From NCBI GenBank assembly GCA_034670405.1, contig JAXDDX010000013.1, positions 565,001 to 629,000 of the forward strand: 64,000 bases of DNA, given 5' to 3'. This stretch comes from Hoplostethus atlanticus. Taxonomy: Eukaryota > Chordata > Actinopteri > Trachichthyiformes > Trachichthyidae. A program made the position numbers and the translations under genes. The notes under the pieces were generated by a model. That model was not told the DNA's origin. It saw only the letters and a program-made list of their open reading frames with translations, and did no database searches. Within the stretch, counting starts at the first letter, position 1; every line of letters starts with the position of its first letter. Below, in pieces: positions 4,074-63,101 of this stretch.

Positions 4074-6129
4074 ATGGGCAATTCTACAGGATGCACCGTG
4101 GACGACCTGCAGGCGGTGGAGCTGCACCTCTGGTACAAGAAGTTCATGACGGAGTGCCCCTCGGGTCAGCTCACCCTGCATGAGTTCAAGCAGTTCTTCG
4201 GGCTGCGAGGCTTGGACCCAGAGGCCAACGCCTACATAGAGCAGATGTTCCGCACCTTTGACATGAACAAGGTAGGATGCTGCATTTCAGCTGCTGGGTT
4301 GGGTTCATGTAATGTGAAGCCCTGTGCATTCAATTTGACTGCAGAGGCTGGAACTTTGTAAGGGTGGCGGGCATGGAGTGATTGGTGTGAGGTTGGTGTT
4401 AGTTCGTTTAAAAGTAATATGAATAGGAGTCAAAATGAGGGAAGCAATGTGGGATTCCATGAAGGTGCATCAAGGGGCACTGCACTTACTCCTAAACCCA
4501 CTCCAAATCTAGAGTAAGTGCCCCATAGCAAATTTCAGATGCCCCCTTATTAGTTTTGTTCTTTATCTAGCACTGCTGATTTTTTCTGGGGTCACACATA
4601 CTAAAAATGTGCTTTAGGTTTCCATGACAATGTCCACCAAAAGGAATGGGTTGTAAGTTAGTTTTAGTTACAGGTTTTGCTCATTTTTACAATTTGGGTA
4701 AGATTTCTGAAATCAATCCATAATTATGGCTAAAAAAAAAAGTAATTTGCAAGCCCTTCTGAGAGGCTGTATTCTGGAAGACAATCACTAAGCTGTTAAA
4801 TTGTGTTTTGCCCGACCATCCAAGAGTTGGTAAGGGCTAGTACTCACATCATGTGGTGTGACCTTCCAGCCCATTTGGGGCCTCGGATCAGTTATAAATA
4901 GTGGCTCAGAGCAAGAGAAAGGATCATCGGAGGATCTGTCTGACTAAGAATGCTATATTTAGTGACGCTGTCAGCTTCAATTACAAAAGGCTGTGGTAAT
5001 CTCTTATGTACGATTTAATTTTGAGATTATCTCTTTGAGACAATGCCTTGGTGCCAAGTTTGCTGCCTGTGTTCAGACAGTCCCTCTAGATAATCCTAGG
5101 CCCGGGCATTCTCCACTTTCATGCATGGGATAGATCTTTGGATGACTGATTGCCACACTGAAATGCTGAAAACTATGTTTGATGTAGATGATTGTGTATA
5201 AGACTTGTAATCCTAAATACTTTTATGTAATAACATTCATTATTTGACACATTTAGCCCCCAAATCTTGCTTCATTCCATATGTGCATCACATGGAAGCC
5301 AGCATTCAGATTCATGAGTGAGTAACTGCTCTTCTTGTTTTTGAAGGACGGCTACATAGACTTCATGGAGTATGTGGCTGCCCTGAGCCTGGTGATGCGG
5401 GGGAAGATGGAGCATAAAGCTGCGCTGGTATTTCAAGCTTTATGATGTGGATGGGAACGGCTGCATTGACCGACATGAGCTCCTCAACATCATAAAGGTA
5501 TGTAGTGTACCGACCACGTTGCACTTCCTGCTCAGTATAAAACTCTCTTTGGCCACAACATGTCATGCTGACTTTATTCTTTGTGTCCTTTAGGCCATCC
5601 GCGCAATCAGTGGGAGTGAAAATCAGGAATCAGCTGAGGAGTTCACCAACGGTGTGTTTGACAGGATCGATATAAATGGAGATGGTGAGTATGTTTTGGC
5701 TCTATGGGGAGTTGAGCATTTAGGAACAAATCAGTGGTTGGACAGCTAATCACTCCGGTGCACAGTGCTTACACATTTATCAGCTGAGCTAGTGCTGTCT
5801 TAATGTAATAAACATTGAAGGAGAGAGTAAATGCAGGTGGTTGTTAAACATCATAACAATGCCAAAACCATGACAAAAGATCCTAAACCCAGTTCTGCAC
5901 AAAGGTCTGAGACCAGAGATGGCCCAGCTACAATACTAATGAAAGAATGCAGCATTTGCCCAGTACTTCCGTGTCAATAAATATACATCTTGATCCAATA
6001 GGGGAGCTGTCCTTGGAGGAGTTTGTGGCTGGTGCACGCAGTGATCACGATTTCATGGAGGTGATGGTGAAAAGTCTGGACCTTGCCCACATTGTGGCCA
6101 TGATCCACAGTCGGAGGTGCACCGTCTAG
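4074..6129 (+). CDS. guca1a: Guanylate cyclase-activating protein (GCAP1-like), frame broken by a 1-nt insertion
   Basis: GCAPs are myristoylated Ca2+ sensors that regulate retinal guanylate cyclases in photoreceptors. Exons: 4074-4271, 5347-5497, 5594-5684 and 6002-6129 (TAG). The start MGNS carries the myristoylated Gly2. EF1 is degenerate, with the family's Cys-Pro (ECPSGQ). EF2 is D63-E74, EF3 D99-E110 and EF4 D142-E153 in the intended frame, 188 aa, close to the family length. Introns follow MNK and IIK (phase 0) and GDG (phase 1), as in vertebrate GCAP genes. Exon 2 is 151 nt, whereas the family frame needs 150. An extra base in the AAAG at 5416-5419 shifts the frame and gives TGA at 5443-5445 after 98 residues, removing EF3 and EF4. 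Everything else looks intact, so this is a very recent lesion, an allele, or an assembly error. The paralogue (guca1a against other fish GCAPs) is not certain. Confidence 0.85.
4272..5346 (+). other. GCAP intron 1
   Basis: Intron of 1,075 nt with donor AAG|GTAGGA and acceptor TTTTTGAAG. I see no additional exon or recognisable repeat in it. Confidence 0.6.
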
Positions 6130-6868: not shown

Positions 6869-6874
6869 AATAAA
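6869..6874 (+). terminator. Poly(A) signal of the GCAP gene
   Basis: AATAAA about 740 nt after the GCAP stop, followed by GT-rich sequence (TCTGTGTAATGTTTCTG) typical of a downstream element. A second AATAAA lies near 6944. The 3' UTR 6130-6868 shows no coding potential. Confidence 0.6.
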
Positions 6875-8031: not shown

Positions 8032-11000
8032 TTATAGGTAGTCATACAGGTACTTCACAATGTCAAAATTCACAGTCCTGGAAGAAAAAACACAAAGAGC
8101 ATATTTTTAGCACCAAAACTAGAAAGTACCTAAGTGAAAAGTCCACGCCCTTCAAAAATTCTTCATTCAGTCACAATCATGTATAACCACACACCCCTAC
8201 CTGGATATGGCGCGGATGAAGTCCAGAGAAACGGCACATTTGTACTTGGGGGCATCCAGCTGCTCATCAAGGCCGACCTGAGTCAACAGCTGTAGGGTCA
8301 CCAGGGAGGAGATCTAAATGGGGATGCAGGGAAGAAGGCATGAGTCTTTGTTCGACTTTTTCAGCCACTACTTCTTCAAACATTTTATGTATAAACACAA
8401 AATGATGGGAGCCACTTACACAGATATGGGTCAACCTAATTTCCTCAAACCATTTCAAGAACCAAAAATAGATCCCCAAACACATAACCATATAGGCAGA
8501 AAGTCTCTCATCTGAAAAATTCTGGTCACTGGGTTTAATTTAACACCAAATAGCATTTTTTTTTGCATATAGAACTTAAGATTGAATTTCAATATTTTGT
8601 ACATAATTGTAAAAAGTTCCCATTTGATGACTATGAGAATGATTCTTATATTGTCTACATTCTGTGATTAGTTGATTTTAATGTGAAATAATGTCAAATA
8701 TATTGTATGTTTAAGTCCATTTGAGTGTTCTAATGAAGCTTTGCACATCTAATTTGTCAAGGATGCCATAGTCCAATTATCTAAAAACAAAATCAAGAAT
8801 GGTTAAAGAAAGCCTCTTAAATGTTGGATCCATCTACAGATGAAGGCCTCGTCCTGGGTTCATCTAAACCATATCTGTACAACCTGTCCTGAATGTCTGG
8901 TGAAATACTGTATAGATCATGCAAACATTCAAAAGAGTGTTGACTAAATAGTAAAGGCAAAAGCCTGCTGGGATTTGACCTGGGAGAAGATGCTGGCAGT
9001 GGGGGCCACTCTGCTATCCACCACACTGTAGAAGATGGCCAGCAGGCGGTCCAGAGGGAAGAGCTTGGGCCCCAGAAGGTGGTTACTTGTCTGGAAGACC
9101 ATGCAAGAAACGTTATTGTCCATATTGGCACATATAGTCAGGTTATACCTGAAACTTATCAAGGAAAAAACAGTGGCAGTGTTATGTTAAAATTATCACC
9201 TTTTCATGCTTCTTCAGGAACTTTGTTTTCTTTATTTTACCGTGGTGCTGTTGGGGGACAAAAAGATGTCAAACAAGCTAAATGCAGTGAAGCGTGGTTT
9301 AAAGAAGTGCCCACTGCTAGTGGCATTGGTGAATATTATTGAGAACTTTTTTTCCACTACCTTGAGGAAGAAGCGTTTGTCCGTGCGGGCAGGGTTGTAG
9401 GATGCCAGGTAGGCAGCAATCAACAGGAACTTGGAGTAATAGGGAAGCTCAACATGAGCGTGAGCAGACAGCCCTTGGAAAGGAGAGAAATAAATGTTGG
9501 TTACATACCTATAAAACTTAACATACATCAGGTACGGAGATGCTGTGATACGATCAAGACCTTTAAAGTCAGCTCATTACAATTAAACTTAATTAAAATG
9601 TACTCTGGAACCATCTAACAGGTCAACTGGTCACAAGGAAACCACAATACCAATGGCAACTCTTAAGTTTTATTGCCTAGAGAACTACAACAAGACTGAT
9701 CACAGGAAAAGTTAACTATATGTGTGTGTGCGTTCTTGTAATTCTGTCCTTAATGAGTAGCAAATATCTTCACAAGAATAGAAAGATGAGGAAATGTGTG
9801 GACATTTTGCTGGTTCCTACTTCTTCAAGGGGATAGGGTAAGGTTAGGACTTGAGTTTAGGGGTCAGAATTAGGATCAGGTTAGGCATGCAGTGGTGTAC
9901 TTTAAATGTGAAATAGGTAAGATATCTACTGCCCCACAGCACAAAATGGCCAAAATAATGACTCAATGATTACTTCTTTCTGGCTATCAAAACTCACTTT
10001 CCAGCCCGTACACTGTTTTGGAATAGACCCCTACCCCACTCACATTTTCTCACACACAATAAGGATGACATGCTGCTATGCTTTTATACGTTATTTACTG
10101 CCCAGGAAGTAGAATAAAGCACAACCATTTCAGCATGAATCCACTGGGTCATTGTACCCCGTCAATGGCTTTACACGTTTGTTCTGCAATTGCATGTCAT
10201 GTGTCATTGTTATTGAGTGCAATTGTTGTTATTGATATGTGTTTTACCTCTCACGGCTCCAGTTTCCTTCTCCTCCATTTGCTGCAGCTGCTCCCATTGA
10301 ACGCTAAATAGGGGGGAAAGAGAAACAGCGCACAGCCTAGATCAGGAACCACAGCCTAGATAATGGCGCTGTCGACCACTGCACTGCTTGTTGGCCAATA
10401 TTATGAATATCAAAGGCTGTCATCACAACAACTACTGGGGTGAGACATTAGATCAAACTTGACAGGTGTTGATTATTTATGCATGAAGCAGATTCACATG
10501 GAGGACAAAAAATAAATAAATACATTTAAAAAATAAACAGACCTGGACACCTCCCGAAGGTACACCGTCTGCATGGCTTTTTTCAAATGAGGCTCAATGT
10601 TTCTCCACAGCTTGTGTGTGTCACTCTCTTTTACTGAAGACAAGCAATAAACAAGCATTACCAAAAAAGATGGTTAATCCTCACTAATAGTCTGGGAAGT
10701 CTACATTCGCTTACACTGTAACAGTAAGTGTGAAGAAACAATAATTTCCCAGTAGAAATGAATGCAGGTTGTACAGTGTGTTTAAGGAAAAAATACAAAA
10801 AAGAAAAATCTGAACATAAAAGGAAAACCAATCGTCAAATGAAAATTAAGAAAAAAAAGGAAAATGTGGCATTTTAAAAATTGATAAAGTAACTGTAATA
10901 TGAATGAATACATGTCCTTATGCATTACCTTTTCCTTCCTCCAAAGGCTCACAGAACTTTGAAAAGTTAAGGGCAGCCTAGTTGAAGAAAGAAAAGGTAT

Positions 11001-14000
11001 TAGAAAATCAAGAAAAATTAAGATTAAAATGTCCACTCTGATAGATTGATTGGCATGTGTGTGCGTGCGCCTGACCAGGTGGCGGAGCTCTCTGAGGTCC
11101 CGACAGACCGAGTAGAAGACTCCCAGCAAAATGTTGATGTAGGAGGAGTACAGCTCTGCAGAATAAGATGGATGGCTGTCCTGGGACAGGATCTGCTGAA
11201 GCTCTCCTGGATGGATGGATGGATGGATGGACGGACACACACACCCATACACACACACACATAGACAGAACATACATGGTAGCAATCTTACTGTCATCCT
11301 TCTTCAGGCAGACACAAGAGAATACCAATTGGAGACGGTTTGTCCCTGAACTACAACCATTCAATCACTCTCATATTTAAACGTTCAATTTCCCAGTGAT
11401 GTTTTGCAATGCAATATTCCATCCGCAGCCGCTGCTAAAAGTGTTAGAACAAAATCGCAGGTACAATAACATCTCACACCGCATCCACAAGTGTGTCATT
11501 ATGCAGCGTGGTGGGGGCTATTCATGACACTGAATGATGTGGTGTCTGTGAATAATAGTACCTTTACTGTAGTCGGGGAAATGGAGCAGAAGGGGTTCAA
11601 AACAGCCGGTGGTGGGTCTGAACGTGTCCCAGACAATTTCACTGAGCAGGATGACGGTCACGTTGTCCGCAACCTGAAAAGAAGAAGTTTGTTACAGTAC
11701 ACATATATATCTTATGTATCATTTGGATGAGACGCACATGATATCATCTGCAAAGAAACCTTTGCTAGTGATACTTCATTAATGGCCGATCTCAGATACA
11801 ATGTTGAAAAAGTTGTTTACAATGATAAAGTAGGTTTCAAGGGAGCTTTATCTTATTTGTGTCTGGACTCAATAATAGGCTGAAATGTAGTTTTATTATA
11901 ATGACTTATTCCACAAGAAAAATACTGTTAATAAAAATGGTAATGTTCACTTGCATAAGTATTTTAAGTATAAGCATCTTAGTTGTTTAGCTTGATCAAA
12001 TCAGATTAATCAGTAACAAAATAATTGTTAGTTCAAGACCTCATTAAAGTCAGTAAATCCTTCCTGTTAACCTTTGCGCTGGAGAGCCACAACAACACAT
12101 GTAGGTGGCAGAACAACCCTTAATCATTTTGTCATCCATCACACACATTTAAATCAGCACTGAAGCTGTATGACATGCGAATGGCACGTCCCTCTTAACA
12201 CTCAATCCATCCCCAACAAGATATCAGTCCATCAGGAAACATTAAGACACATAAATAAATAAATAAGCAGGTTTACTTTTGATGTGGTTAATTAAAATGC
12301 AGTAAGTGGTTGTAGGAGTAGGAGCCTTATGAAAGAGCTCAACACACTCAGCTCAAGGTCATTCATTATGAAAGGAGCTCTTCTTGTCCCTCTTTATCAT
12401 CCACTACCCAGTGTAAAAACAATGAAGTGCCTTACTCAATAGTGCACACAGCAGACAGATTCTCACCAATTCCTGGAGACGCAGAAGAGCAGGGAGGAGA
12501 TTGGCATCCATGTCTCTCAGAAGATCGGCCTTTTCCATTACCTGAAGAAACAGTTACGTTTATTTTGTTGCAGTTTTGTGACATGCATAATCAATAAGCC
12601 AGAGGTTTTGAAAGGCACACTGATGTTGCTTGGTGTGAGCTCATTTTCAAATGTAAAAAATGCTTAAAAATATTAGATTAAACCCATGACTGTATTGGCT
12701 GAAGATCACACATATTTCCTCCAGGGTAAGGCATGTGAAGCCTTCTATTTGCATATCCCACCACTATTAATATGATCATACAAGGATTTACATAACATAT
12801 CCAAACAATCAATAATTTGATATGCTGTGGATTATAGTGGTTTACCAAAGTGTGTCACACCTCTTGAAAAGTCAAATACCAGGGTATTTGGGTAATGAGG
12901 GTAATGTGTATTGTACTCACAATGTATCGTGTCTGCTTTGCAGTGGACTGGGAAGACTGTTGCCTGTAGATGCGAACGAAGTCAGACAGGGAGGGGCTAC
13001 GGGGGAGCAGGGAGGCAGCATCACAGCCAAAGAGGGACAACAGGACTTGTTCAAACAGCAGCGCAACGGAGACACATTCAACACAACTGACTGTGGCATG
13101 AGGCAGCTACAGAGAGGGGAAGAATGATGGAAGAAAAGTATTGTGAGATGTGTGTGCCTGTTAGTACACATCTTTACACTAGATAACAGCTCTGTGAACT
13201 TTCAAAACTTTGGTTTTACTTGATGTCACAGCTCCCCTCTGCTGCCATTTGGTGTCACTCCTCGTGAGCATTGGGATACAAAATGGTGCACATGAATGCA
13301 AACTATAAAAATTGCAGTGAGACAGTAAATCCTTTCCATATTAGGTACTTAGCTGATGGTCCTATCCAGAGGGATTTACATTAAGCAGGAGTAAGCAAGT
13401 TCAGTATCGTGCTAAAGGATTCATGGTGCTGAACATGTTAGCTCATGCGAGGATGAAATCGGTGATTTTTATCTAACAGATGAGATTTTTAAACACTAAT
13501 CCACTCTGCCATCCAAGCACACCACATATAATATATAATTTAGGTAGACACTTTGCCAGGTAAATAGATATGCTTAAGACCACAGACCCCAAACTGATTA
13601 AGGTTTTGTCCCAGGGAGCATCTGGAAAGATTTATGGTGTCTGTTTGCACTGTAGGAAGGTGAGAACAGTGGAGATGGTGAAATTAACTGCTCTAAGCTG
13701 AAAGCAAGTGTCTCTCTCTCACCTCCAGTTCCTTCAGCAAAGTGTTTATCACATGACTCTTCCCTGAGGCACGATGACCATAGATGAAGATGGAGGGGTA
13801 GCTGTATTGATCTGGCTGTAGGAACAACAACAAAAAGCCCTGAAAAACAACTTTATTGGAATAGGAAATAAAGCTCTTGTCACAGCCTACATTTAATCAA
13901 TGTTGGACAAAAATCTATACAAATGTTTGTACAAAAGTTCTCCCACTCCCTGCTTTAATTTTACAATGTTGCCAACTAATATCAACCATCAGTCAATGCT

Positions 14001-14381
14001 GTTGTGATTTTATTGTAGTTAACTAAAACTAAGCATGAAACGTTTTAGTAAACTGAAATAAAATAAACAGTTTGAAAATGCTGAACCTAAACTAATACTA
14101 TGATCCCATATGCTCAGTTCAGGTCGGTCGGTCAAGGCCAAATTAATTGTATATAGCCACTAACACTAACACTGGACTGATACTGGGAAATAGGCCATAT
14201 TGAGAAACTCCATCTAAGTAAAATAAAAGCTAAGCGTGATTCACAAAACCTCACAACACTGACCTACCTCTCCCATTAGCGAGAGAAGCATCCCTGCTTG
14301 AACATCTCTGCAGGGCGACTTCTCTGCGACCCTCCGCAGCCTCTCCTCCTCGTAGCCTGGATGCTGAAGCAGTGCTGTCAT
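8032..14381 (-). CDS. orc5: Origin recognition complex subunit 5
   Basis: ORC5 is an AAA+ fold subunit of the six-part complex that marks replication origins and loads MCM2-7. It binds ATP but is not regarded as the hydrolysing subunit. Fourteen coding exons, from the start: 14268-14381, 13723-13815, 12921-13106, 12467-12541, 11562-11673, 11076-11206, 10929-10977, 10543-10633, 10248-10303, 9361-9473, 9200-9247, 8980-9090, 8201-8313, 8032-8077. All phases join and total 445 aa plus stop (human 435). Walker A GHRASGKS is in exon 2. The Walker-B position reads YIVMEKAD at the exon 3/4 join. The conserved blocks [30 protein letters not shown] and FPLDRLLAI mark the middle and the C-terminal domain, ending KYLYDYL. 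The 48-nt exon 11 (HHGKIKK...) is small but splice-flanked. The N-terminal start at 14381 is the least certain part. Confidence 0.95.
9720..9920 (+). repeat. Decayed copy of a common fish interspersed repeat
   Basis: In orc5 intron 9. The order is TGTGTGTGCGTTCTTGTAAT, 'tcttcacaagaatag', 'gtgtggacattttgctggt' and then an AGGTTAGG-rich tail ending in 'ggttaggcatgcagtggt'. This matches my memory of a widespread teleost element (expected 'cttgtggggacatt...tagggttaggcatgtagt'). The formal family name is not known to me. Confidence 0.45.
13336..13425 (+). repeat. Degenerate copy of the 'cagacgcttttatccaaagcgacttaca' type fish repeat
   Basis: The stretch 'acttagctgatggtcct' plus 'atccagagggatttacatt' aligns by eye to the better-preserved copy at 32098-32470 (TTTAGCAGACGCTTTTATCC, then AAAGCGACTTACAATAAG). 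It lies in orc5 intron 2. Confidence 0.5.
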
Positions 14382-15882: not shown

Positions 15883-18800
15883 ATGGTCCCCGGGGCCCCC
15901 ACCACCACCACCATGCTCCCCGCCTCGGAAGCTGCCAAAATCTACCAGACCAACTACGTGCGAAACTCCCGGGCCATCGGCGTCCTCTGGGCCATCTTCA
16001 CCATCCTCTTCGCCATCGTTAACGTGGTGTGCTTCATCCAGCCGTACTGGATCGGAGACGGTATGGACACGCCGCAGGCAGGCTACTTCGGTCTGTTCCA
16101 CTACTGCATCGGGAACGGGCTGTCCCGGGACCTGACCTGTCAGGGCAGCTTCACCGAGTTCAGCACCATCCCCTCTGGCGCGTTCAAGGCCGCCTCCTTC
16201 TTCATCGGCATGTCCATGGTGCTGGTCATCACCTGCATCGGCTGCTTTGCGCTCTTCTTCTTCTGCAGCACCGGCACCGTGTACAAGATCTGCGGCTGGA
16301 TGCAGCTGGCTGCAGGTAGGAGACTATGCTCTGCTACTGTTGTTGTTGACTACAGGTGGAAGTTCATAAGTTTGTTCAGCGGTTCCCAAAGTAGGGTCCG
16401 GGAATCCCCACGGGTCTTTGAATGGGGTTCCACGGGGTCCCAGCAGAATGAGGAATAGTTCCACTCTACTTTAATTCAGTGGGAATTATCCCAATTAAAA
16501 TACGAATAAGAGTGACTGTTCTAATCACAGGTTTCACTCTCGCCAATATTATCTATTATCTCTACACTGTAAGACCTACAGTGTAGACAGTTATACAACT
16601 GAGTGCTAAATCAACAAACATCTTCCCACATGATGTCCCTAGGGCAGTCTTCAAATGGGACTTGATGGCTTAATGTGTAAAAACAGTTGAAAACCCCTGA
16701 GTAGGGGGAAGCTGGAAGTTCATGTTAGTTGTCCCAGGAGTTGCCTAGGTAAAGCTTAGGTATGCACTTGGCTACAGAAAACAATTTGATATGATCTTAT
16801 CCTGTGAAACCCCATCTGACAAGATTTCTGCCCATATCTATGACTTGGTACAAAATTATATAACTATATAGTGTAGGAGGGGTTACAGCTTTCTTAACAA
16901 GCTCTCATTGTGCTAACTTCTTAGGAGTGAAATAAAATAAATATAAAGAAATTAATTATTCCTCATTTTGCTGGGATGGAATCAGGGGATACCTGGATCA
17001 AGGATACCTGGAGGTCCCCAGACTCCACTTTGGGAACAAGTGGCCGAGAGGTTGGTCAGTTCCTCAGAACCAGGTAGTGATGTAGTGGGAAATGAAATGG
17101 TGGATAAACTACAACCTCCACTCAGCGATCATCGTAAGGCAAACAGCCACCAATACAAACGAAAATGAGAAAAGCATTAATTTATGAATTTTATTATGTT
17201 CATATAATTGGCATAATTTTGATTATCGACTTACTATGCTGTATATCATGAATATGTATCATATATCAGCCTAGAAAGATGGGTAATCTCTATTCCGCAA
17301 ATAAAAAGGTACGATAAACTAGTGGGTTTACTCTCCACTACAACCCCGGGACCAGGTAAGACCACAATGTTATTACACGTACAATGGAAGGAAGTAGGCT
17401 ACATTACATAATACTTGCCTTTTAACCAGGGGGTTAATTGCATGCATTCAATATGAAAAGAAAAAGGGGAAACAAAAATGAAAGGAGCAGAGACATTTAT
17501 ATAGAGCTGGCTGAAGCGCTGCTTTCAGCATTCAAAGATTTTCAGTTGAATTTCCAAGATCCTGTTTGGAAGAGACTGTGCACAGATTTTGATCCCCATC
17601 CAAAATTACATTTTCAAAGAAACTGATGCAAGTCAGCTTCATATCTTAGCCAACTATCGGCCTATCTATCTCCAGTTTGATGATGCTTAAAGGAAAATGT
17701 CACTGAATTGCAATTAGACAGTAACACAAATCTAAGAAAAATCACTACAATAGGCCTGTCATTCACCTGACCTTGACAAAAAATTGTGGGGGAGCTGTAT
17801 TTATGGCGTTGTCTGTTTCTATGTCCTATGAGTTTCGTTTGTCCCGTTCAGCCAGAAACAAGCGAGAAGAGTTTTTTTCCTGCACCCAAACTGTGATATC
17901 ACACCAATGTACAGCCCCATTTACAAACACACAGGAAGGGATTGTAAAGGTCACTGATATTTACAATAGACTGATATACAGTGATTGTTGGTGGTAGATT
18001 TACACTATGAACACATAGACTTCTTTGCACCTTATTAAGATAAATATAGTTTGTGCGTACAAACTTTGTGTGTCTCATATTGCGTCATATTGTACATCTT
18101 GTTGATGCCATTTCTGCTAAGCACTGGTTGTTTGTGCTCACATAATAAGAATCACATTCATATATGTTGCTCTTCTGTTTTTCCCTTAATAAAAACTTGT
18201 ACACATCTATCCTATTGTAGGTAAAGATGTGCGTCAAAAGTCCAATAGCAACCGCAGAATCCCACCCTGTGCTGATTTTTTTTACCCAAAGGTAGTCCAT
18301 GTGTTTGGCCTAATCTATTCGCTATGTTCAGATTTCCTTGCAAACACCCTCCACCGTAAATATATTCCCAACAGCCCGAACCCTAGCAGCTGTGAGGTGG
18401 ATTATCTCGTGGTGAAGGCACACACCACTGCGTCATGTTGGGCTGAGCTCTATCACAAGCCAGTCTAATGAGAGGCACAGCCTGGCGGTTTGTGTCTTTG
18501 CCTTTGCCTTTTTTTCCCCTCACAGATCAAAGCTACTTCTTATTCCTCTGAGCCATGTGTTCACTTTCCCCCGGTTTTCCCACCGTGTCAAGGGAGCAGA
18601 TCTGAGAATAAGCAACGCAACCGAGTGCAAAAGAAAAAAATCTTATTTTGAAATGCCACAGCTGATACACTCATCTGCCTTGTCTTACACACTGTGGAAT
18701 GGGTGTTGTCAGTGATGTGAGAGGGAGTCGACACTGGCGATGACAGCGCCGCTGAGTGTGCTGCTCGTTGCTCCTCGTCTCCTATTGATCATCACATCGT

Positions 18801-21800
18801 TTGCCTCACTCAAAGGCACGATCCATGTCAGCATTCACCCTGCAACTGTTTCCTCATCCAGCTCTATCACTCCATCTGTCTCCCTTCATATCGCAGCTCC
18901 TCCTCTGTCTCATTCGCTCAAAAATGCAACGTTGAGGCCACTGTGAAATTGGCTATTAAGAGATTTCCAGGGAACTGTAATTGGCAATATTGAGGAGTTT
19001 TCTCTCTCTAGGCAGCCTGAAATCCCAATGTGATTGTGAAAAAATCCTCCCAAGGCTCAATGCTGTCAAATGTCATTTCAGGTAGTATTAACGGCTGTGA
19101 TGTCCTATCAAAGACTGCGCGTGTAGCTCAGAGGCACCCCTATTCAACGATGGGATGGCCTGAATGTTTGATTTGACTAATAATGATCACTATATCGTCT
19201 GGTTTCACTGTCCATTTTGTTGCCCGAAGATTTCCCTTGTCTTTTGCACAACTTCCAGCTTTGTGCAGACTACCCACCCTCAGCAGGTGTCAGACATGTA
19301 TCACCAGCACCGGCAGCATCTCTTGCTTCTACCTCTCTCCTCCCCTCCGTCTCTCACCTCCACCTTTCTGCCTGAACGCCCTTCTCACCACAAGATACCA
19401 ATTACTGACAGTCACCACCACTGCCACAACTGTGGCAAATACAAAGCAAGGTCAGTGACAACAGCTATTGAAAACTAAGGAACAGCGGCTGCTGTCAGCC
19501 AGTCTAGGATGAGGTGAGGGCACAGTATGGAAACGCAGCAAAACAAAGCGTGACTGGCTCTGATGTGAGGCTGCACATTGGTGCTCAATAACCTGGATGG
19601 CCTCCAGAGCTCTGCTGGCCATCTGGATCTCACTGACTCTCACACACACACCGCCTGGCTAGTGCACAAAACACACACTAAGATCGCCATGGCATCAACA
19701 CCTGCCCAATTTTTTGAAGCTGTAGATCCATAGGAATCCATAGAAACCGAGGTTGGTGAGTGCTGTTGAAGCATTTACAGTAAACAATCCATTTCCGAGT
19801 TGTTTGACCAACTCCCTGCATAGTAAGTGGCTTGCCTCGTGGTGCACTCTGTGCCTACTAAGTGGTCCCCTAGAGAGGGAAGCTGGCATTAGCAGCCAAC
19901 AATAAAAGCTCCATTTGGTTGCTGGAGGTTTATTGATCTGTGTGTTTCTCTCCAGAATAGCACGACTCTAATAGGGGACAGCCGCTGTCACTGTATGGCT
20001 TTTTCACATGTACTGGCATATAGAATGTGTAAACGTTTACCTGTGTGTGAGAGCTGGAGAGAGCGTTAGGCTGTGTGTGTGTGTGTGTGTGGGCGTGCAC
20101 ACGGCATTCCACAAAGACTCTTGATATCTGAATGTATTTCTCATATCAATTTTTCAACCCGCCACCTCACGTCCTCCTGTTTGATGCACTATAACATGAT
20201 TTGATATAGTGTCTGACCGACCGAACGCTGTTATTATTATATGTGAGTGCTCGGTGCACCGTGTGGTATTCAATTTTACACCTCTTCAGATAGACGGCAA
20301 GTGGAACTGGGACATGCTTATCACGATCACATTGTGTCTTGGAAAGGAACGAGGGAGATACGGGAGACACTATCACAGCGTGTCTCAGGAAGAGAAGGGT
20401 AGATAACAAAACACAATACAGTGAATGCTCAAGAAGTTGAGATCTTTGAAAAATTGAAGCGCTGCATGTGTCATTTCTGCACCCATATTTATACCCATAT
20501 TAGAAATCAATTTCACACGTTATTGTACGTTTAGATCTCATTTTGTTTAGTGATCTTCTACATTTTTTTTAAGCTGATCACAGATTTCTTTAAATAGCAA
20601 GATAGTCTGATGCTGATATGATAATGGTTTTATTAGTATAGAGAATGTTTTAGAAGAGTGCTTTCCCTTAATACAATACACTTAATACACTGGTCCCTTA
20701 AGGAACAGACTTAATACACTACTTACTCTGAATCAATGTGTGAGCACACTCTGGGGACAACACACATGGGTTATGTTTCATCTCAATAATAACACACATG
20801 ACACAACATATGCTGTTATTAACTAGGGGTAGACCGACATATTGGTTTGATATATCAGGCAGATATTGGACTTTTATTAAATATCAGATATCGTCCGATA
20901 ACTGCTAAATAAATACTAATTCTTTAATTGTTCAATAATGTTTTTGTTAATTAACTCCGATATTGGCATTAAAGAACGCACATCACTTGAACCCTGTTGT
21001 TAACGTGTTATGAAGAAGCACATGCGTTTGATGCCCGTCCCCCTCCTGCTGAACACATGGATGTGTTGAAAATGACACATCGTTGTCAGATGATGTGTAA
21101 GAAGTGAGTAAGATCCTGCACTGATAGGAAGATGATTCAAACCGCTCAAAATGTTCTTACTCACATTGGAGTATCAGACTACAACACCGCCCGTAGGCCG
21201 ATCACCGATCTCATATTTAGAGTGGGTGCCCATCTGCTGATACTGATTGGCGGCCAGCTAATCAAAGCATCCCTAATTTAGATATTGCAAGTGCTTTCAG
21301 CAAAAGGCTCTGCAGCGAGACGACGGCTGCTTCCTGCGTAGCTGAGACAGAGCTCATTTAAAGCCGCTAGCTAATGACATCAGCCAGGTCGTCTTATCCT
21401 CTCACAAGTATGGTGACGGACAGGAAGAGTCTGAGAGGCTTACAGTGATGTAACATGTAACACAAGAGCCTAACATGCAGACATGAACACATACACACAC
21501 ACAGGTTTGTATTACTATATTTGTGAGGACTTTCCACCGACTACATTCATTCAGCAGCTAACCTTAAAGGAAAAATCCACCCTTGCACACACACACACAC
21601 ACACGCAAACACACAGATACTTGAAAGGCCATTAGCCAAAGCTTTAGAGAACCCAGTGATGAGATGGTCATCTGAAGGTGCTCTGATTGATGAAAGTCAG
21701 CCTGCTCCCAGCACTCTGCAAGCCCATTGAGTCTCCCACTGTTCAGCTCATGGTGCAGCTTGGAGAAGGGGCGGGAAAACACCTTGCGCTCTGCCCCTCA

Positions 21801-24800
21801 CTCTCACACTCATCTCCCTGTCTCCATTCAGCCGAGCGGCCAGCTGCTAGCCCCTGGAAGCTATACTGTTGCTTCAGTGTGTAGTGTTCTACATCAGAGG
21901 TCAGGGCTGCCTCGCTGGCTGCCTGACCTACAGGTACCACCTGGAAGGAAAAACAGAGAAATTGTGTTTTAGGCCTAGGAGAGGTCGCAGCAGATGGACA
22001 GTGGTTTTACACCGAGTAAAAAAAGTGCTATGGAAGCATAAACAAAAGGACATACTCCCACCGCGGTGACACAGGGTGAATCAATCAGCTTACCAGCCAG
22101 CTGAGCTGAAATTGAAAAACAGTAGTAGGATTTCAAGTCTGTGGAGGATAATTCTGAGTCTATGGATTGTTTGGATTTCAAAAGTATGTGTACGTTGAAG
22201 GATGTTGAAAATAGGATTGTGACTGATTGTGTCTGGAGTTTTTATTCCAAAGCAAATACAGGCTGGAAAATGAGTCTCAGCAACTGGCAAAGTGAATTGT
22301 TGTCATTGTTATTGATCAACAACCGCAGATATATTATGGTCATTTTGTGCTATGGGGCCCCTTTAAGCTTTATACAAAGAAATAAAAATCTAAGGGGAAT
22401 TTGCCTGTTTAATGGCGCTGCAACAGAGAAGCACAAAGAACAAAGAAAATCTTTGCTGCTTCATGGCTCCACCAGTGTCCTGCTCCCAGATCATCAGCGA
22501 TCTGCTTAATAGAGCTGTCAGCCTGTGAATAAATCCAAATATGACGTGGGCGAGGCGATGGAAAGGTGTCACAGAGGGCGAGGTGTTTTATGTGGTGCGT
22601 GGTCCAGTGGAATAGCAATGCGAGATGAGCATCGTGTCCAAGACGGCACACTTGCAGCCAGACTAGAGGCACTCATTTCCACTTGTCAGCTGCCCACAAA
22701 TCTGCTGCAGCACGGGGAGGAATTTGCCATTAACGGTGCAGCGGTATTTTGCTCCCTCTAACAAGGATCACTAGGTCTTGCACGGTTTAGCTGTAGTGCT
22801 GCTATTTACATTTGACCCTGTGCTTGAGTAGATTAATAATCAGATGATCCTACCGCGCTGGAATTGTCAAGGTCACATTTGTGAGCCATTTCATGCTGTC
22901 ATCCTGAGGTGATAATAAGTTCGTCAATTTTTTCACAGGCTGACAGGGGCTCTAAAATTGAGCCGGAGCATGATGGGCAGATAAGACGCAGGGCCGGCTA
23001 GAGCCTGTTTTGACGTAAAGCAAGAGTGGCGTGTCTGATTGGGGAGTCACAAGGTATTTAGAGACTTAAGGGTGACTGACAGTTTTGATTGCAGAGTAGT
23101 TAGGAGGTGGAATGAAGAGAGAGATGGAGATTACGTGAGACGAGAGAAGGAGAAGAGACTGTCAGGGCTGCCAAACAGATGAAAATGACAACCAAATTCC
23201 CTGTTCTTCAAAGTGCTCTGGGACTCTAATTGTGTTGCACAAAATGGATATTCTTCCATTAAGGGTAAATTGCCCAAGAAATGAACATCGATAATAGGGT
23301 GCTTATGGGGAAATATACATGCACAAACAAAACTTAACAGAGCAGCACCAGGGTCACTTTGCTTTGAGCACGCAAACACAGGCTGGGTGTTGCTTGACTG
23401 AGGAGGGGAAAACGGCTATGGCTCGTGGCGGCGACTCTGCACACCATAGCTGCACACGATCGTTTACGGGCCAGCTCAAGGCAGGTACTTTCAGCATCTG
23501 AGACCTCCCAGGCTCCATTACCGAGTCATTAAACCGACTTTGAGCAAGCGGGTTTATGTAAATGTAGTTACGAGATGCTGAAGGCACTGAGCATCGGCAC
23601 AGTTGAACCACTAATTACACCCACAGTTTGCTTGGTTGAAGCAACGCACAAAAACACAATTCCTAAAGAGCAAAGTGTCTCTCTCCAGGGTAACCTACGG
23701 CTTGATTCCTCTAGCGCTAAGCCTGGAGGTGCTTCATACATGTTTCATGGGGTGTACCCGGTTCGCTCGTGTTGTGGGGAAGGGAAGGGAAAGGGACTGC
23801 GCATTCTTTGGAACTCTGTTGGCATTTTCCGGCGTTGCCCTTTAAATTGCTGGGAAATGATGGGATCGTGTCCAGTTGCCAAATAGAGCCGGTGGTGGAG
23901 CTGATGGGGAGATAACGAGGTCTTTCCAGGAGTCACTGCAGGATGTGGATGTGTAATGCTGCGCCGTTGCTTGATGCCATAGTGCTTAGTAACACTCCTA
24001 ATCAGGCGCTAGTTATGGAGCTGTAGGAGAGCTCGCAGCAGGAGATGTGGAAGGAAATGATAATGGCAAACGGCATGAGGGGATCAACAGGAATGATTGG
24101 CGTCTCCTGGTTTGACATTCACGGTGTGTCAAACAGTCTGCGTGTGTAAGAGAGAGAGAGAGTCTATAGGACTATCACAGATGTATTCATCTGATGGGTG
24201 TGTGTTTGTGTGCATGTGCGCGAGAATGGCTGAGTGGGAGTATCATTGATGCAATCAGCCATTGATGTGATGATATTTTTCTCTCTGCAAAAGAGAATGT
24301 TCTCAGTCTGCTGTTATATTATCCTATTGTATTATGCATCCCTAAGGGAGCGTCACTAAATAGCTTGCCTGCTCTGCACTGCACAAGGGATCAGTGACAA
24401 ATCCCCCAGCAGGGAAAGTGATAATCTCAAGGACCATAAGCTTGTCCCAGAGGAGAACAAAATACTCTGCCTCTCTTTATTTCCTGTTTGAGTCTCATGG
24501 GAAGCTGTATGCTAATGCAAACTAGCTTATTCTTAAGAGTTGTGGTTATCAATTTATTCCTCCATATCACAGGCTATCCATTAAAGGGGGTTTCATCGTC
24601 TCAGTAGATTTACAGTGGTTTAGATTCAGATTTATCTCACGCCCACCTGACTAAAGACTTAAACCCCTTTCACACCGAGACCCAGGAATATGATGCTATG
24701 CTGATCTGGGTCCATTCAATGTAGGAGGCAATTCCCACTGAGCCTCGTACACGGGAATGTCCCACCTTTTATCATCATCACAACAAGCAGGTTATTTTTT

Positions 24801-27800
24801 ACATCCTGTGTTCAACACGGCAGGTGACGTGCCGCTGAAGTGAGTTGAACTCAGTTTACCCGGGTGGACCTCGTCACACCTGAACCAATTAAAGTATCAT
24901 GAAAACCTCAAGCCTCTAATTGGTTCAGGTGTGCCAGAGTAAGGCTGGAGCTAAAACCTCCAGGACAGGGGGTCTTTGAGGACTGGATTGAGAACCAGTG
25001 TTATAGATGCTCTTTGTACAACTGGTGCAGTATGTACATATCCCACTACTCAACAGGTTTCTTGAATTTGGAAAAAGGTGGCGGTTCACCCACCTCTGTT
25101 GTTAGAGGCTGTCATGTCAGGCACAGCACAGAAGTCTTCCACGCTTCATTAGGATTTGATTGTCCCGTCTCCCCAGAAGTAATGTAATTAGTGTTGCTAG
25201 GATAGTGGTGGAGGAGGAGGAGGAGGAGGAGAGCCTGATTGCAGCTCTGCCCTACTGCCCTGGCCTGTGGTGCTCATCCCCTGTGTGCTTAGAGACCTAC
25301 ATACTATACCAACAACTTCCTCAGCAGGAGAGCATCTTTCATCATCCGCCAATGACCGCAAACCTCAAATGACCAGGAACTCGGGGGAAAGTTTGCTGTC
25401 AGAGTTACAAACAAGACTTTGAGGCTTGCCTTGCTGTGATGGAATGTGACAGGGTGAATACAAGGAACGAAAACCCCAAACCAACAGTATGCCGAATAGA
25501 CAGCGGAGTGACTTTGTTGCTTCTCGATCCCTCGGGGCTTTCAATCTGCGCATACCAAGAGTTCACAGTTGAGATATATTGGACATTGCAGCCAATTCAA
25601 ATAACCTTGCAGATTAAACGCTGCTGTTGTCGTGTCTTTGTTGTTGTTTCTTTGCGCGCCCACCCGAGTTACTTTAATATGAATTATACATATCAACATA
25701 ACTGCTGGTTTGTAAATAAATCATGATTCTCTTAGACTTGAATGAAAGCCTCTGAGTGCGTTTTGTCTCTCGAGTATCTGGGAAATTAAATTATGCATCT
25801 TGTCTATGAAGTAAATACCCTTATTTTGGTGATCAGAGGACAGCAGCAGCAACTATTCTGGTTCTCCAATCGGCGTGTGAATGCAAATGAATCTCTGTGT
25901 CTCTGAATCACGAGCAAAAGGAATACGTACCTTCAAACGGCAGTAAGACTACCCAACACACTCTCGCTCTCTCCCTCCCCCTCAGTCTGCTTGTCTTTTT
26001 ACTTGGCCCTGAACAGGCTCTCCTCTCTCAGACTTCATTATTAAGAGATGAAGCAAGTTGAACTCCCCTTAATTAGGACCTGAGGGCAAAGGGAGAGCGT
26101 TTCTTCACTAAATAAATCTCAGCCCTGAGGGGTAAGCATGTTTTACCACAAAATTGGGAGATATATATCAACAAGCTATAATGTTTTCATGTTTAGTATG
26201 CTGGACAAAATACACCAGCACCCTTATACTCACAGTTTATTTAACTCTTTTTCCCAGCTCTTAGTCTTAATTATTTTGACTTTAAAGTAATAATCTGCAA
26301 CATTTTTATAGAAATAAGTCCATTTTGCTTCTTGAGGTGCCGAAACATCGATAAACATCGATAAAGAAGGTGCCCACTTGATAACCCCAACAACATGCCG
26401 GCTCTCACACCGTCAACCCTGCAACCTGTGGGTTAGTGAATGCTGCTGCCTGTAGATTTATGACAGCCTAGCCTGATATCCTCAATGGCGAGCATCAGTA
26501 GGGCAGGACATCACTCTTTAGGTATGAACCGGACTTCTGTAAGTGTTCTCCCTGGAGGGCGGCACAAGGGGATTCTTACATCACATCCTGTGTTTTGTTA
26601 AATTGTTGTGTCCTCCACAGTGCGCTCTAAATGTTGTCAACACGTCTCCTCTGCTGCCGCTTGCCTTCCCATATCTGAGAGTCTAGAGGAGGGGCAGGGT
26701 TTATAGATTTCCCATCGGGGTTTATCTTCTTGATCACCGAGCCGGGGTGGAGAAGACGGGCGGTTGATTTATTCTCCTCTTCCAGAGCGAGGGAGCGGGA
26801 CAAGGGCACAGTGACCCATTTCAAAATGAGCAGAGAAGCCTCTTTGGATGAGCGTGTGTGTGTTTGTGTGTCTGTGCGTGTGCTTTTGAGTGATGTTCGG
26901 CTCAATGTGTGTGCGTGTTTGAGTTAATGAGTGATGTTGGTGTCCGCTTGTGTCGACGAGACTGACGCACTGGCCCAGGTATTCCTCATATATTAGATTC
27001 TCCCAGAGGCCAGTTATGACACCTGGCTGTCATTGTTGGAGGGTGAGTAATGCACTGGTGCCCACTGATTTATGGGCAAGGCGCTTTAGCGAAGGTTGCA
27101 CCACACAGCCCAATTTCCACCAAGTCTGAAAAACAGCTGTAAACTTTCATTTTCGATGACAGTGGAGAGACGGAGCGCTCTAAACTTTTGAGAATCCGCT
27201 CTCCCCTTGCAGCAGGTATTATCTCATCCCTCTGCTGCTTCTCCTGTGGCATCCATTTTAGATTCCCAGAGGAAATCAGAGGACATGGTGCTTTGCTTTG
27301 ATGTGGCTGACCTCCTCAGCCATTTATTCAGTCTAAGCATAACAGCTGATAATGAGACAGCCATGCATGAGCCTGACCCCCGTGATCAAAGCCTATCTCT
27401 CTCTCTCTCTCTCATCCTCTCCCATCTTTGATATATGGCTTACAAATCACTTTCAGGTTTGGCCATCATGACACTTCTGCACTTCTGGGTACAACTGCAT
27501 TTCATCCTGGGAGAGGCAAAACAAAATCCAAATCCATTAGATGCTTCCATGGAGGACAATAGTCTACTTCCTCTACAATAGCTTTCTCAGCAGGCCATAA
27601 ATGTTATGCCCTTCATCCCCTCAATTCCACCCTCTTATCAATCAATATCTTCATCTTGGATGTGGAAGATACTCGATGAGGGGCTGGGCTGCAGGCAATT
27701 ACCAATCATACAGATTTGACTTCCAGAATATATTACCCTCCCGAGTTGTCTGCGGCCTGAGAAAAGTGCTTCGGAAGAAGATTTAAGTGCTGTGCTGTCC

Positions 27801-29237
27801 TGAGCGAAGGGAAACATGGCAGCTATTGATAGTGAGTCAAAATGCCCAGTGAAGGGCCTAATAAATGTCTAACTGATGTTTCCTGATTCCCATCATAGTT
27901 ACGTCTGTAATTGGAGTGAAACAGTTGTGTTAGTAAAAATAATTGGATAAACTGAATGTAAAACAAGGATGTGCTGTTGAAGAATCAGTGTGCAAAACCA
28001 GGAGGCTTATATTCCTGCTAGCGTCCTCCAAGGTAGAGGCTTTAATTACACTGATCATCTATCTATGATTATACGGGATTGTATTGAGCTGCAAATGAGG
28101 AAGTGCATCATGCTGTGTGGAAAACACGAATAACAATGCTAACATGAAAAACATGTTGACGGGGGGGAATCATATCAAAGGGAGCTTAGTGAAGACTGTG
28201 GGCATAAATAGAATACAAATGAGGTCTGAGCTTGAGAGGACATCAAAAGGCTCCGGCACTCATGTAGCGGCACAACGAGGCTTGTTATTTGATAAACTTA
28301 GCAGGGGGAGTTAAGAACTGTGAGCTGCGGGAGTGTTTGCATCCCAGCAGACTCAGACGATTACACCGGGGAGTCGGGAGAAGAACAACTCTTCCATGAG
28401 TTCCTGCTTTCAGAGGCTGCTCTTCTGGGTCTGAGTGCAGTGTTTTCTCTTGGTATTGGTGTGTGTGTGTGTGTGTGTGTGTGTTAACAGTTGCGTCTGT
28501 TCTGCAGTGTGTTGCTCTGTGAGGCTCCGCTTGTTTACAGTCACCATTTTCCGAAGGTCACGGATGAGAGGACACGGGTTGTGTGGCGAGAGAGAGAGAC
28601 GGCGTGTGTTGTTTCAGCAATGTTTGCAGCCACCTCGCCGGTTAATGTTCTTCCTCCCCGATCTTGCCTGTGAGTGAGCCGGCTGCGGTTGCCATGGAAA
28701 CGGCACTCTGCTGGCAGCGTCGTATCGCTTTCCCCGCTCTGCGCGATCGGCAGGAGAGTCGGTCAGGATCAGTGTGCTGGACGGAGGGATGCACTCTGGG
28801 AATCAATGCACCACAGTGGAGTTCAAGGTGTCTCCATGGCAACGTGCTTGGATTCCAGCCCGTTTGGCTGTTCCCTAATCCCAGCCACTTCTTTTGGGTC
28901 ACAGCGCGGGTCAGGGGAGCATCCCTGTAGCACTGCAGCATCACAGCAGAATGCTAAGTGAGTAGATGTGGCCTTACTCTCTCACATCAAGAGTGACAAC
29001 ACGTCATGCAGCTTCGGCTTTAGGACTACAACCCTCCCTTCAAAGAAGACTTTGAGTCTGCCATTATGTAACCACTGGCTGTTAAAGTATCCCCATGTCT
29101 CTCTATTGTAAATGTATCTCCGGTGCCTCATTACTGCCAGCTTGCATCTCTCTATTCATGCCAGGTGGATTTTCCTCAGCGAGGCACTGCTCTGGATTTT
29201 CTCTCTCCCCTCACACCGTTAGTCATTAGTACTGAGC

Positions 29238-29281
<44 letters not shown>

Positions 29282-32200
29282 ATGTACCCTGCCATCAGCA
29301 CAGATCAGAGACACATTAGAGTTACTGAAGTGGAGTGGAGCAATCCCCTCAGCCTAACTTCAAAGGCAGATGGTTTTGGAGAGAAAATAAGGACAACCGT
29401 AAAACATTCACAAGAACTGGCAAAGTTGTCAGCCACTTCAAGAACACTGTCACCACATCTGAGGAAGCCGAGAGAGAACAGTGCAAGAATAGGGAGCACT
29501 TCGATGAAGTGCTGATGGATCTACAATAAAACGTGAAAAGCACCTGGGCTCCATCTGTGTGTTGGGGAGCACAAACAAGCAGCCTTTGGGCTCATTAGGA
29601 ATAGATCATTCATTGGGTTCATTGTTGCAAATAACATCTGAACCTCTGGCTTTTCTCTCTCTCCAGCTGAGAAAATGAAATAGTGTTCCTATTGCTTCTT
29701 GGCATGCCTCTCACCCCATATGCCCGCAGCGGAGCTGGTCCCCATCCAAATAGGCTTGCCATGACACTATTGGGCTTATCATGCTCATGGAAGTGCTTCA
29801 AAAACATTATTACTGTAGGGGGATTTTAGCTTTGCTGACAGTGTGTATACAAGGCTTAACACATGTTCTTCGTCTGTCTGCAGCCTGGATCCTCCTTGGC
29901 AGCTTGTTTCCTCCTCAGGTTTGCTGGTGGGAGCCAGTAATTAATGGGAACACCTGTTCCAATTCACCTCCTATGTTCCCCCACCCAAGAGGTTCATGGG
30001 AAACGGGGTCCTCTTGTACACCAGCGAACGAAATCCGCTGTGGATTATGGCTGTGGGGCTCATATGTGAGGACAGGCTGACTCCTCAGGAGGACATATGG
30101 CAGGGCTTGCTCATCAGAGGAGATGAAAGAGAGGTAGCGGGAGAAGATGAGAGAGGCTTTTGTGAGTCACGTTCATGCCATAGTACTGGGGTGTTGGTTA
30201 AGTGCTGCCAGTTGTAATCATCACAAATCCACGTATCACTGGAGTGGTGACAGCAGGCAGCCTGTCACCATGGCAATGCAGCATCTACATAATTTGTCGC
30301 GCTGAAGCCCAGGTTCCAACTGCTGATTGGATGACTGGTGTAGTGACCGACCTTCATCCCTGAACATGCAGTGGAAAGAACAGGAAGCTTTGATTAAAGG
30401 TTGCTTGGAAACACAGACCAAACTCAGATCAAATCAATTAGAACTAACTTCAGTCAACTCAGGTAAGAAATATCTGATGCTGCATTAGAGGTTGGATGCA
30501 ACTCCTGAGATGCTCTCAAATCCACTGTAGTCAGCAGGGGCCTGAAGAGGGAGAAGAGGGATCTGAAGAAAACAATACGTCAATACGGAAAAACAATACG
30601 GAAAACAATACGTCCACCCAGGAGGATTATCATCATAACTTTTAAGCACATAATTACTAAAAGAAGAAAGCTTTCTTTCTATGGCTTTGCCTTGCCATAG
30701 GTTGTTAAATGGGCCATTTGAAGTATCTTAAAATAATCTTAAATTACCAACACAATAGTGTGCTTAGAGCTTTTGTAGGATGAGCCTATTGTTCTCACAC
30801 TCAGTCATGTTGAGTAGCTGACAGCCATTAAATTAGCTTACATTATTTAACTTTCTTCTCTTAGACAGAATCCCTATAACAGGTTGTTAACCTTGACCTA
30901 AGGTCAGCAGTTTTTTCTCTGAGGACTGATGAAGAGCCAATAATACTATAACTCTTACAGTCTTACAGTAAGGCCTGCACTTGACAGAGAGCCAGGCTGC
31001 TTGTGCCTGCTTCAGCACAGGAACGACTGGATTGTAAATTTGCTGCTCAAATCAATTTTATGCCACGCTCTTCTCAAGGGACCATCTGCAAACTACCTTG
31101 TTTTAGACACAGAGTGAAATTTTCTTTTTCTTTTCACGGCATTGAATGATGACAGTTAATACTCAGATAAAGTCATCCTGCAGAGTAAAATAAGGAGCCA
31201 GTATTGCCCTGGCCTGACTGAGGTGTCTGCTGAAGGCTTTGAAGTGGTTTTGCAGTGTGCCAGTCTCTCTGTCTGGCGCTGCATTTTTAAACAGGGCCTT
31301 TTTTCCCCTCCATGTCTCAGATGAGGTGCATTGGGATTCCAATCTTGTAACCCTTGTTGCTGCCATATTCCTCCAGCCATCACTCTCCGCTCCTCTCTCC
31401 TCTACTCCGCTTGTCATTTCATCCCTCAGCTGAAAATGACACGAGTGACACTCGCGCATCTCTCACGATAACAACACGCGCCGCTCTCATATTCTGACCC
31501 GGTGCCTAATAACTCCAATAAGCTCACCCTCATTCCCGACATCACATTGTCACCCCCGTCACGTTAGGCATCCTAATCTGACAGCCGCTGTTGTCTGTCT
31601 GACTTCCCATCCGCTCCTCCCAGTCTACAAGCAAACACCACACAACCGCTCGTGTTATTTTAAACGCCAGCTGCACAGACAGCGGTTTTCTCCTCCGCTG
31701 TTCCCTCTAATCTCATCTTCCTCGCTCTCTCTACCTCCATCTCCATCTCCATCTCTCCTTCCCCTCCTCGCCCTTCCTTTTGTTCTTGTCTCTTAGCTCT
31801 TAGCTTTATCTCTTCACCCCTCCCTCCTTATCGGCCACAATGACAAGAGAAACAGGGTGTTGTGGTGGAGGTAGAGAAGGACAAAAAAAGGGGGGGGGGG
31901 GGAGCACGCAAATGGCCTTTTGTTGCCGCCATGTGTCCTGGCTTGCATACAGAGCAGAGCAGAGCGACCTAGCCGGTATCTAAAGCACAGAGTATTGTTG
32001 AGCAGAGGAGGGTTACTGAGCACTGCTGTCACCGGCGTCTCCTGGTTGAACTTTCAGCACCACGACGCATGGACAGTTCCCCGGGAGAATTGCATTTTAC
32101 ATTGCATTACAGTCATTTAGCAGACGCTTTTATCCAAAGCGACTTACAATAAGTGCATTTAACGTAGGTAGGCAAGAGAACTACTAGTCACCAGAAATCG

Positions 32201-33147
32201 TAAGTGCATTTCCTTCCTAAACAAGCATCTAAGAGCAGAACCAGTGCTAAGGTAAAAGTGCAATAAGTTAACTACCTACTTTTACTTAAACAAATGAGAC
32301 AAATAAGTGAAGCATATCAGTATATAAGTGCTAAGACAAGTAAGTGAAGACAAATAAGCAAGTGCCAAGAGGAAGGGTCAGGGTAGTGTTTCTTGAAGAG
32401 GTGGGTTTTCAGCCTGCGGTGAAAGATGGTCAGCGACTCAGCTGTCCTGACATCAGTGGGGAGTTCATCAACTGCACTGCTTGATTATCGTCCAAGTGTT
32501 GTTTGAGTTTACATTCCCACATCCATTGTCCCGTGTTCTGCTATCCAATCGGATCCTCTGAAGCGCAGCAGCCAGGAGGTGCTGTGACTCCCAAGCAGCC
32601 GATTAATCTGCCGTGCCAGCGGTCGACAGCAGGGACAAACCATGTGAGTTAGTGGACCCAACACATGAGGTGTTAATGAGGACGGGGCGATGCGTCAGAC
32701 TGCACACGGGAGTCATGTTGCAGACCGTGCCCCCTCCCCCTCCTCATTATCTTTCGGCTCAAACACACACACACACACACACTCACTCTCACTTGAAGTG
32801 TGTGTGTGTGGAGCAGAAGGGATCAGGGCAGGGGGGAGGAGAGAGAGAGAGAGAGAGAGATGGGAGTGTGAAAGAGGAAGAGGTACTTTGCCCTCATACC
32901 TCCTTGCATCTGTCGGTTTCCGCCCCAATTAACTCCCATTAATATAATTTGCCATGGTCCACCTTGATGCAGAGCGCATATGTGGTCACACTCTCTCTCT
33001 TCCCCTCTCTCTCTCTGACCGACACCCCCCCCCCCACACACACACACACACACACTCCATAACCATGACATTTAAAGGAGAATGAATCTTGCAGAGCAGA
33101 CAGCTAGGCCTGTGGAATGCAACATAATGAATGGCTTGACGGGTGTA

Positions 33148-33235
<88 letters not shown>

Positions 33236-33569
33236 GAGGTGTAGATGATGACACTTCCTCCACCGATGCCCCCAAGGCCACTGCCAACAGCTGTGAAGCC
33301 CTCTAGGAAAGATGAAAGAGAATTTCCCTCCGTGGATTAATAAAGTATCATACTATGTATTATTCAATAATGGTGTATATACACAACACAGTGAGTTGTA
33401 CCACATACACCATCCTCTCTCATTAATCAATCCCCTCAGCACAGCCAGTAGCTGGGGTGGGAGCACTCTGGGAGAGTAGGGATCTGTAGTTCCTTCTGAT
33501 GGTCCTGCAGCCCACAAAAATGACAACAGCATGCATGCAAAGACTCCTGCCAACACATGTACACACACA

Positions 33570-33604
<35 letters not shown>

Positions 33605-33755
33605 CACATACATACAGTAGTGCACCATTGATGTGGAACTGTGCAACACAAACACATACATATTTACATATATATATACACATTATATATACACATTCAT
33701 GCATGTAGTCATGCATTTACACATGAACCTAAAAATATGCACATGCTCAGTCAAC

Positions 33756-33796
<41 letters not shown>

Positions 33797-33800
33797 ACTT

Positions 33801-33845
<45 letters not shown>

Positions 33846-36800: not shown

Positions 36801-36946
36801 CCGAGGCTCTGTCATTTCCGGGGATTATCTGTCTGCTTAATCTGATGGCAGCCCCCGTCAGTGTGGCATCCCACTCTGGTTTAGCTTCCAGCAGCACTGT
36901 GAACACAGACCTATTATACCTGTAACTCTGATTTGATTGGCGAATG

Positions 36947-37009
<63 letters not shown>

Positions 37010-44646: not shown

Positions 44647-63101
<18,455 letters not shown>

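Follow-up and report, generated by a model that had tools for sequence, protein, structure and literature searches.

Guanylate cyclase-activating proteins (GCAPs) activate guanylate cyclase as calcium falls, restoring cGMP after light, and zebrafish have six of them; knockdown of zebrafish gcap3 gave no defect in visual behavior, yet its block slowed cone recovery (as reported in PMC8370914). The guca genes have four exons, and a survey by Gesemann and Neuhauss, from which teleosts were left out, describes many guca losses in tetrapods (PMC10061024). According to Lamb and Hunt (2018, PMC6170504), the isoform GCAP1-L was lost from mammals and is elsewhere the most conserved GCAP clade; in gar it lies on LG8, no more than 3 Mb from SWS1, as part of a row of blocks corresponding to human chromosome 7. 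Losses of single GCAP genes in fishes are already in print, for Policarpo and others give gcap1 as one vision pseudogene of the eyed ophidiiform Lamprogrammus exutus and describe heterozygous gcap2 lesions in Lucifuga gibarensis (PMC7826195). The literature we searched contained no report of a teleost loss of GCAP1-L under that name, although such a loss could have been described under another.

We found a four-exon GCAP gene at positions 4074-6129 of the forward strand of the window, that is, the whole 64,000-nucleotide stretch of Hoplostethus atlanticus DNA that was analyzed (Table 1). Its coding layout is that of the family, all three introns start with GT and end with AG, and AATAAA signals lie downstream at 6869 and 6944. 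When the two frames were joined by an X at the break described below, the resulting protein matched six distinct solved sequences with E <= 1e-40, each named GCAP or guanylate cyclase activator; the best was 2r2i (E 4e-84). Identities were 127/181 to 2r2i, 117/178 to 2na0, 104/182 to 7m2m and 89/169 to 2ggz, which are chicken and bovine GCAP1, zebrafish GCAP5 and human GCAP3, respectively. Even with exon 1 alone GCAPs outscored neurocalcin, recoverin, NCS-1 and KChIP1, and among the neuronal calcium sensors the closest kin of the protein are the GCAPs. The N-terminal Met-Gly (MGNSTG) is present, so that the sequence would allow myristoylation, and the EF2, EF3 and EF4 loops in the DNA pieces fit the binding rule of D, D/N, D/N/S and E at positions 1, 3, 5 and 12 given in PMC6170504. 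The piece of exon 2 that follows the break matched Pfam EF-hand_1 (E 2e-07); exons 3 and 4, each searched alone, had no match in Pfam. The exon reading and the solved GCAP matches thus uphold what an initial annotation of this DNA had claimed of the gene family, the exon sizes, and the preservation of the four exons, the splice sites and the remaining EF-hands.

Table 1. Positions in the window of the GCAP exons, the lesion and the neighboring genes.
Feature	Position	Strand	Remarks
GCAP exon 1	4074..4271	+	198 nt; ATG, Gly2, EF1, start of EF2 loop; match to GCAP1 2r2i, E 2.4e-27
GCAP exon 2	5347..5497	+	151 nt; remainder of EF2 loop; EF3 in shifted frame
One-base surplus	5416..5419	+	held by these four bases; which one cannot be told from the sequence
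Premature TGA	5443..5445	+	52 nt before end of exon 2, 143 nt before last exon junction
GCAP exon 3	5594..5684	+	91 nt; start of EF4 loop; aligned to solved GCAPs in X-joined protein
GCAP exon 4	6001..6129	+	129 nt including stop TAG; aligned to solved GCAPs in X-joined protein
orc5	8035..14381	-	13 exons, 1,287 coding bases, frame intact; match to human ORC5, E 2.2e-154
LHFPL-family gene	15883..37935	+	two exons modeled, 654 coding bases, frame intact; gene end outside model
kmt2e (MLL5)	44650..59026	-	21 exons modeled, 4,956 coding bases, frame intact; 5' end outside model

Exon 1 of the GCAP gene ends between codons and exon 3 starts between codons, so an exon 2 that keeps the frame must be a multiple of three in length, which it is not. 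As written, the frame gives 90 native residues, then eight wrong ones (AALVFQAL) and then TGA, while the family sequence resumes in the next frame from 5420. The predicted product has 66 + 24 + 8 = 98 residues where a GCAP has a frame open for about 190-200, and it retains EF1 and EF2 and has lost EF3, EF4 and the C-terminus; in all of these respects the earlier reading of the exon, the shift site and the truncated product held. Because the X-joined protein aligns to the solved GCAP1 chains both before and after the break, where the X is the sole unmatched position, we interpret the lesion as a single surplus base in a genuine gene rather than the chance end of an open reading frame. A wrongly drawn exon border was rejected as well: shifting the acceptor by one base puts the upstream part into a frame with stops, and splice choice at the normal border of exon 2 therefore cannot mend the gene. 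The proposal that a base had slipped in a short run of A residues fared only in part, in that the surplus does lie within 5416-5419, but it is not assignable to a particular base there and an A-run slip is not established. The lesion breaks the frame of an ancestral coding gene, as a loss-of-function lesion does, and judged from its sequence the locus is a GCAP gene by descent that, as written, would not encode a working GCAP.

Which GCAP is it? The gene is followed in the window by orc5, for which the comparison with human ORC5 used a 369-residue string of exon pieces, by a gene of the LHFPL family, whose best match was LHFPL4 (E 2.1e-61) with LHFPL5 matched too and which we called lhfpl3 from its neighbors, and by kmt2e. 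The PHD exon of the latter matches MLL5 2lv9 (E 2.5e-23), and it alone was matched; most of the gene is presumably kmt2e. Two kmt2e open reading frames, searched for the last exon, exon 10 and a SET exon, had no match in Pfam. Human ORC5, LHFPL3 and KMT2E are adjacent on 7q22. The GCAP gene would accordingly sit in a human-chromosome-7 block, and from its gene neighborhood it is likely GCAP1-L, although the text of PMC6170504 does not name orc5, kmt2e or lhfpl3. No further, intact copy of a GCAP turned up when five pieces were searched against the window by tblastn: below E 0.3 each piece matched nothing but itself, and the next matches stood at E 0.39 and 0.80. A pattern search of bacterial and archaeal contigs gave 27 matches and, as one would expect of such genomes, none was a relative.

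Some other features of the neighborhood may be recorded here. Between 15883 and 59026 kmt2e runs in the opposite direction to the LHFPL gene, which points to a possible local inversion, as the human KMT2E and LHFPL3 run the same way. The kmt2e model includes a GC-AG intron (CAG/GCAAGG) at 55090-55091 (-), after the exon 55092-55344, and proline and glutamine runs abound in its last exon, 44650-45696 (-), which is nonetheless open throughout. Upstream of the GCAP gene, a 140-codon open frame at 1643-2062 (+) may be an exon of another gene or due to chance; it had no match in Pfam or, at E <= 1, in solved structures.

We found no second lesion across the four exons of the GCAP gene. Nor was there excess decay after the break in the identities to four solved GCAPs, which before and after it were 64/89 and 63/92 for 2r2i, 60/86 and 57/92 for 2na0, 52/89 and 52/93 for 7m2m, and 42/79 and 47/90 for 2ggz. 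The gene thus lacks the second lesions and relaxed constraint of a decaying pseudogene. From the absence of a further lesion, and given assumed indel ratios, the divergence since the break is less than about 0.03-0.06 neutral substitutions per site (95%), which is a loose bound. For the extended CRX-type pattern YTAATCY the window has 28 occurrences, where 33 would be expected, and none of them falls in the 500 bases before the GCAP ATG; the shorter GGATTA and GATTAG stand at -243 and -229 and may be chance matches.

A major question arising from these observations is whether the surplus base belongs to the fish or to its assembly. The initial annotation had called the lesion very young, allelic or an assembly indel, and this three-way reading agrees with our results. 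As a control we used 36 exons (13 of orc5, 21 of kmt2e and two of the LHFPL gene), which comprise 6,897 coding bases with 126 homopolymers of at least four bases, and found zero frame breaks in them. The exon joins had been picked among in-frame GT-AG or GC-AG options, and the control consequently rests on the open frames within exons and on the alignment of orc5 to human ORC5. With zero breaks, the indel rate has a 95% upper bound of only 4.3e-4 per base, at which the GCAP coding sequence could still carry 0.25 such errors. The window is free of N and contains two dinucleotide arrays of 45 copies each as well as homopolymers as long as 19; these features suggest a fairly accurate long-read assembly. 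We looked for a pattern of assembly indels in the 36 control exons and did not find one, so the local stretch of the assembly is not full of indels; a single error is compatible with the control.

Such a single error, made in assembly or polishing, would mean that the GCAP gene of the animal is intact and the surplus base a consensus error, and we regard this as distinctly possible. One lone lesion in an otherwise perfect conserved gene, with no second lesion anywhere and similarity equal on both sides of the break, is what an assembly indel is expected to look like. The prior for a loss is further lowered if the gene is GCAP1-L, given the strong conservation of that clade (PMC6170504), and false frameshifts from assembly indels have been documented in vertebrate assemblies (PMC9516821). 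On the other side, the control exons showed no breaks and there was no sign of shortened homopolymers, although one error is compatible with this, and the surplus base sits at a run no longer than three and not at a long homopolymer. Runs as short as this are not where recent long reads typically err. The intact control exons, the absence of N and the presence of long repeats lead us to lean, with reserve, towards a real, young loss-of-function GCAP allele, most likely of GCAP1-L, which is segregating or recently fixed; the similar identity on either side of the break is also what a young lesion predicts.

Could the frame be restored after transcription? Skipping of exon 2 would keep it, as exon 1 ends and exon 3 starts between codons, and so would AGs within 5418-5480 (+) used as internal acceptors, with the exon then starting at 5420, 5438 or 5480 (use of these acceptors would drop part of EF2 or more). 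The shortened protein that results from skipping would lack EF3 altogether and the greater part of EF2 and would hardly be a calcium sensor, and the purine-rich stretch before 5420 makes a poor acceptor, which leaves rescue at the RNA level very improbable. Programmed +1 ribosomal frameshifting at 5416-5419 would yield the full protein and would account for the preservation of everything after the break in the shifted frame, but a young lesion explains the same conservation, and we know of no GCAP that is made by programmed frameshifting; we think this every bit as improbable as RNA rescue. These weightings, in which a real allele stands above an error and the two forms of rescue together count for very little, are our judgement and were not computed.

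If the allele is real, the surplus base in exon 2 would shift the frame and bring in a stop after eight wrong residues, with the loss of EF3, EF4 and the C-terminus. Stops that lie about 50-55 nt or more before the last exon junction generally lead to nonsense-mediated decay, which from its distance to that junction would be expected of this one. The GCAP mRNA would then be removed or, failing that, an inert 98-residue N-lobe would be made, and in either case this isoform would no longer tie guanylate cyclase activity to calcium. The remaining GCAPs might cover its function. By analogy with zebrafish such cover by paralogues is plausible, since the number of GCAPs there and the lack of a behavioral defect on gcap3 knockdown indicate that loss of one GCAP is in principle bearable.

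What would such an allele mean? That a teleost lineage has just lost GCAP1-L through fixation of the frameshift, with the rest of the sequence still pristine, is in our view unlikely, but if it were true the loss would have been caught at its start and photoreceptor recovery could be compared between carriers and non-carriers. A real and fixed lesion would lengthen the short list of fishes that have lost a GCAP and would indicate that the strongly conserved GCAP1-L is dispensable when paralogues remain, whereas a segregating one would provide natural carriers in which to measure the role of this little-studied isoform. Should the surplus base be an assembly indel, the case would be a caution for automated tallies of lost visual genes, in which this gene would be scored dead. 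What we describe is either an artefact or an event of a familiar kind. A link between GCAP loss and dim light, which the initial annotation had drawn, found no support in the window and has a precedent only in the gcap1 of Lamprogrammus exutus as given in PMC7826195.

Compared with GCAP1-L as Lamb and Hunt (2018, PMC6170504) portray it, the present gene is alike in its GCAP1/L/3-type protein and in its human-chromosome-7 neighborhood, and it differs in that its frame is broken in exon 2. GCAP1 (GUCA1A; 2r2i and 2na0) provides the best solved matches (127/181 and 117/178), yet the present gene has other neighbors and no second GCAP gene beside it within the window; the latter is a weak difference because the tail-to-tail pair of GCAP1 and GCAP2 is absent in teleosts anyway (PMC6170504). 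With the gcap1 of Lamprogrammus exutus and the gcap2 of Lucifuga gibarensis, as reported in PMC7826195, it shares a loss-of-function lesion in a single fish GCAP gene, a likeness that holds at the level of gene names. The guca1c of kiwi, in the account of PMC10061024, similarly illustrates that tetrapods lose one GCAP while others remain, but there mutations are accumulating in four genomes, whereas the present fish offers a single lesion in one sequence.
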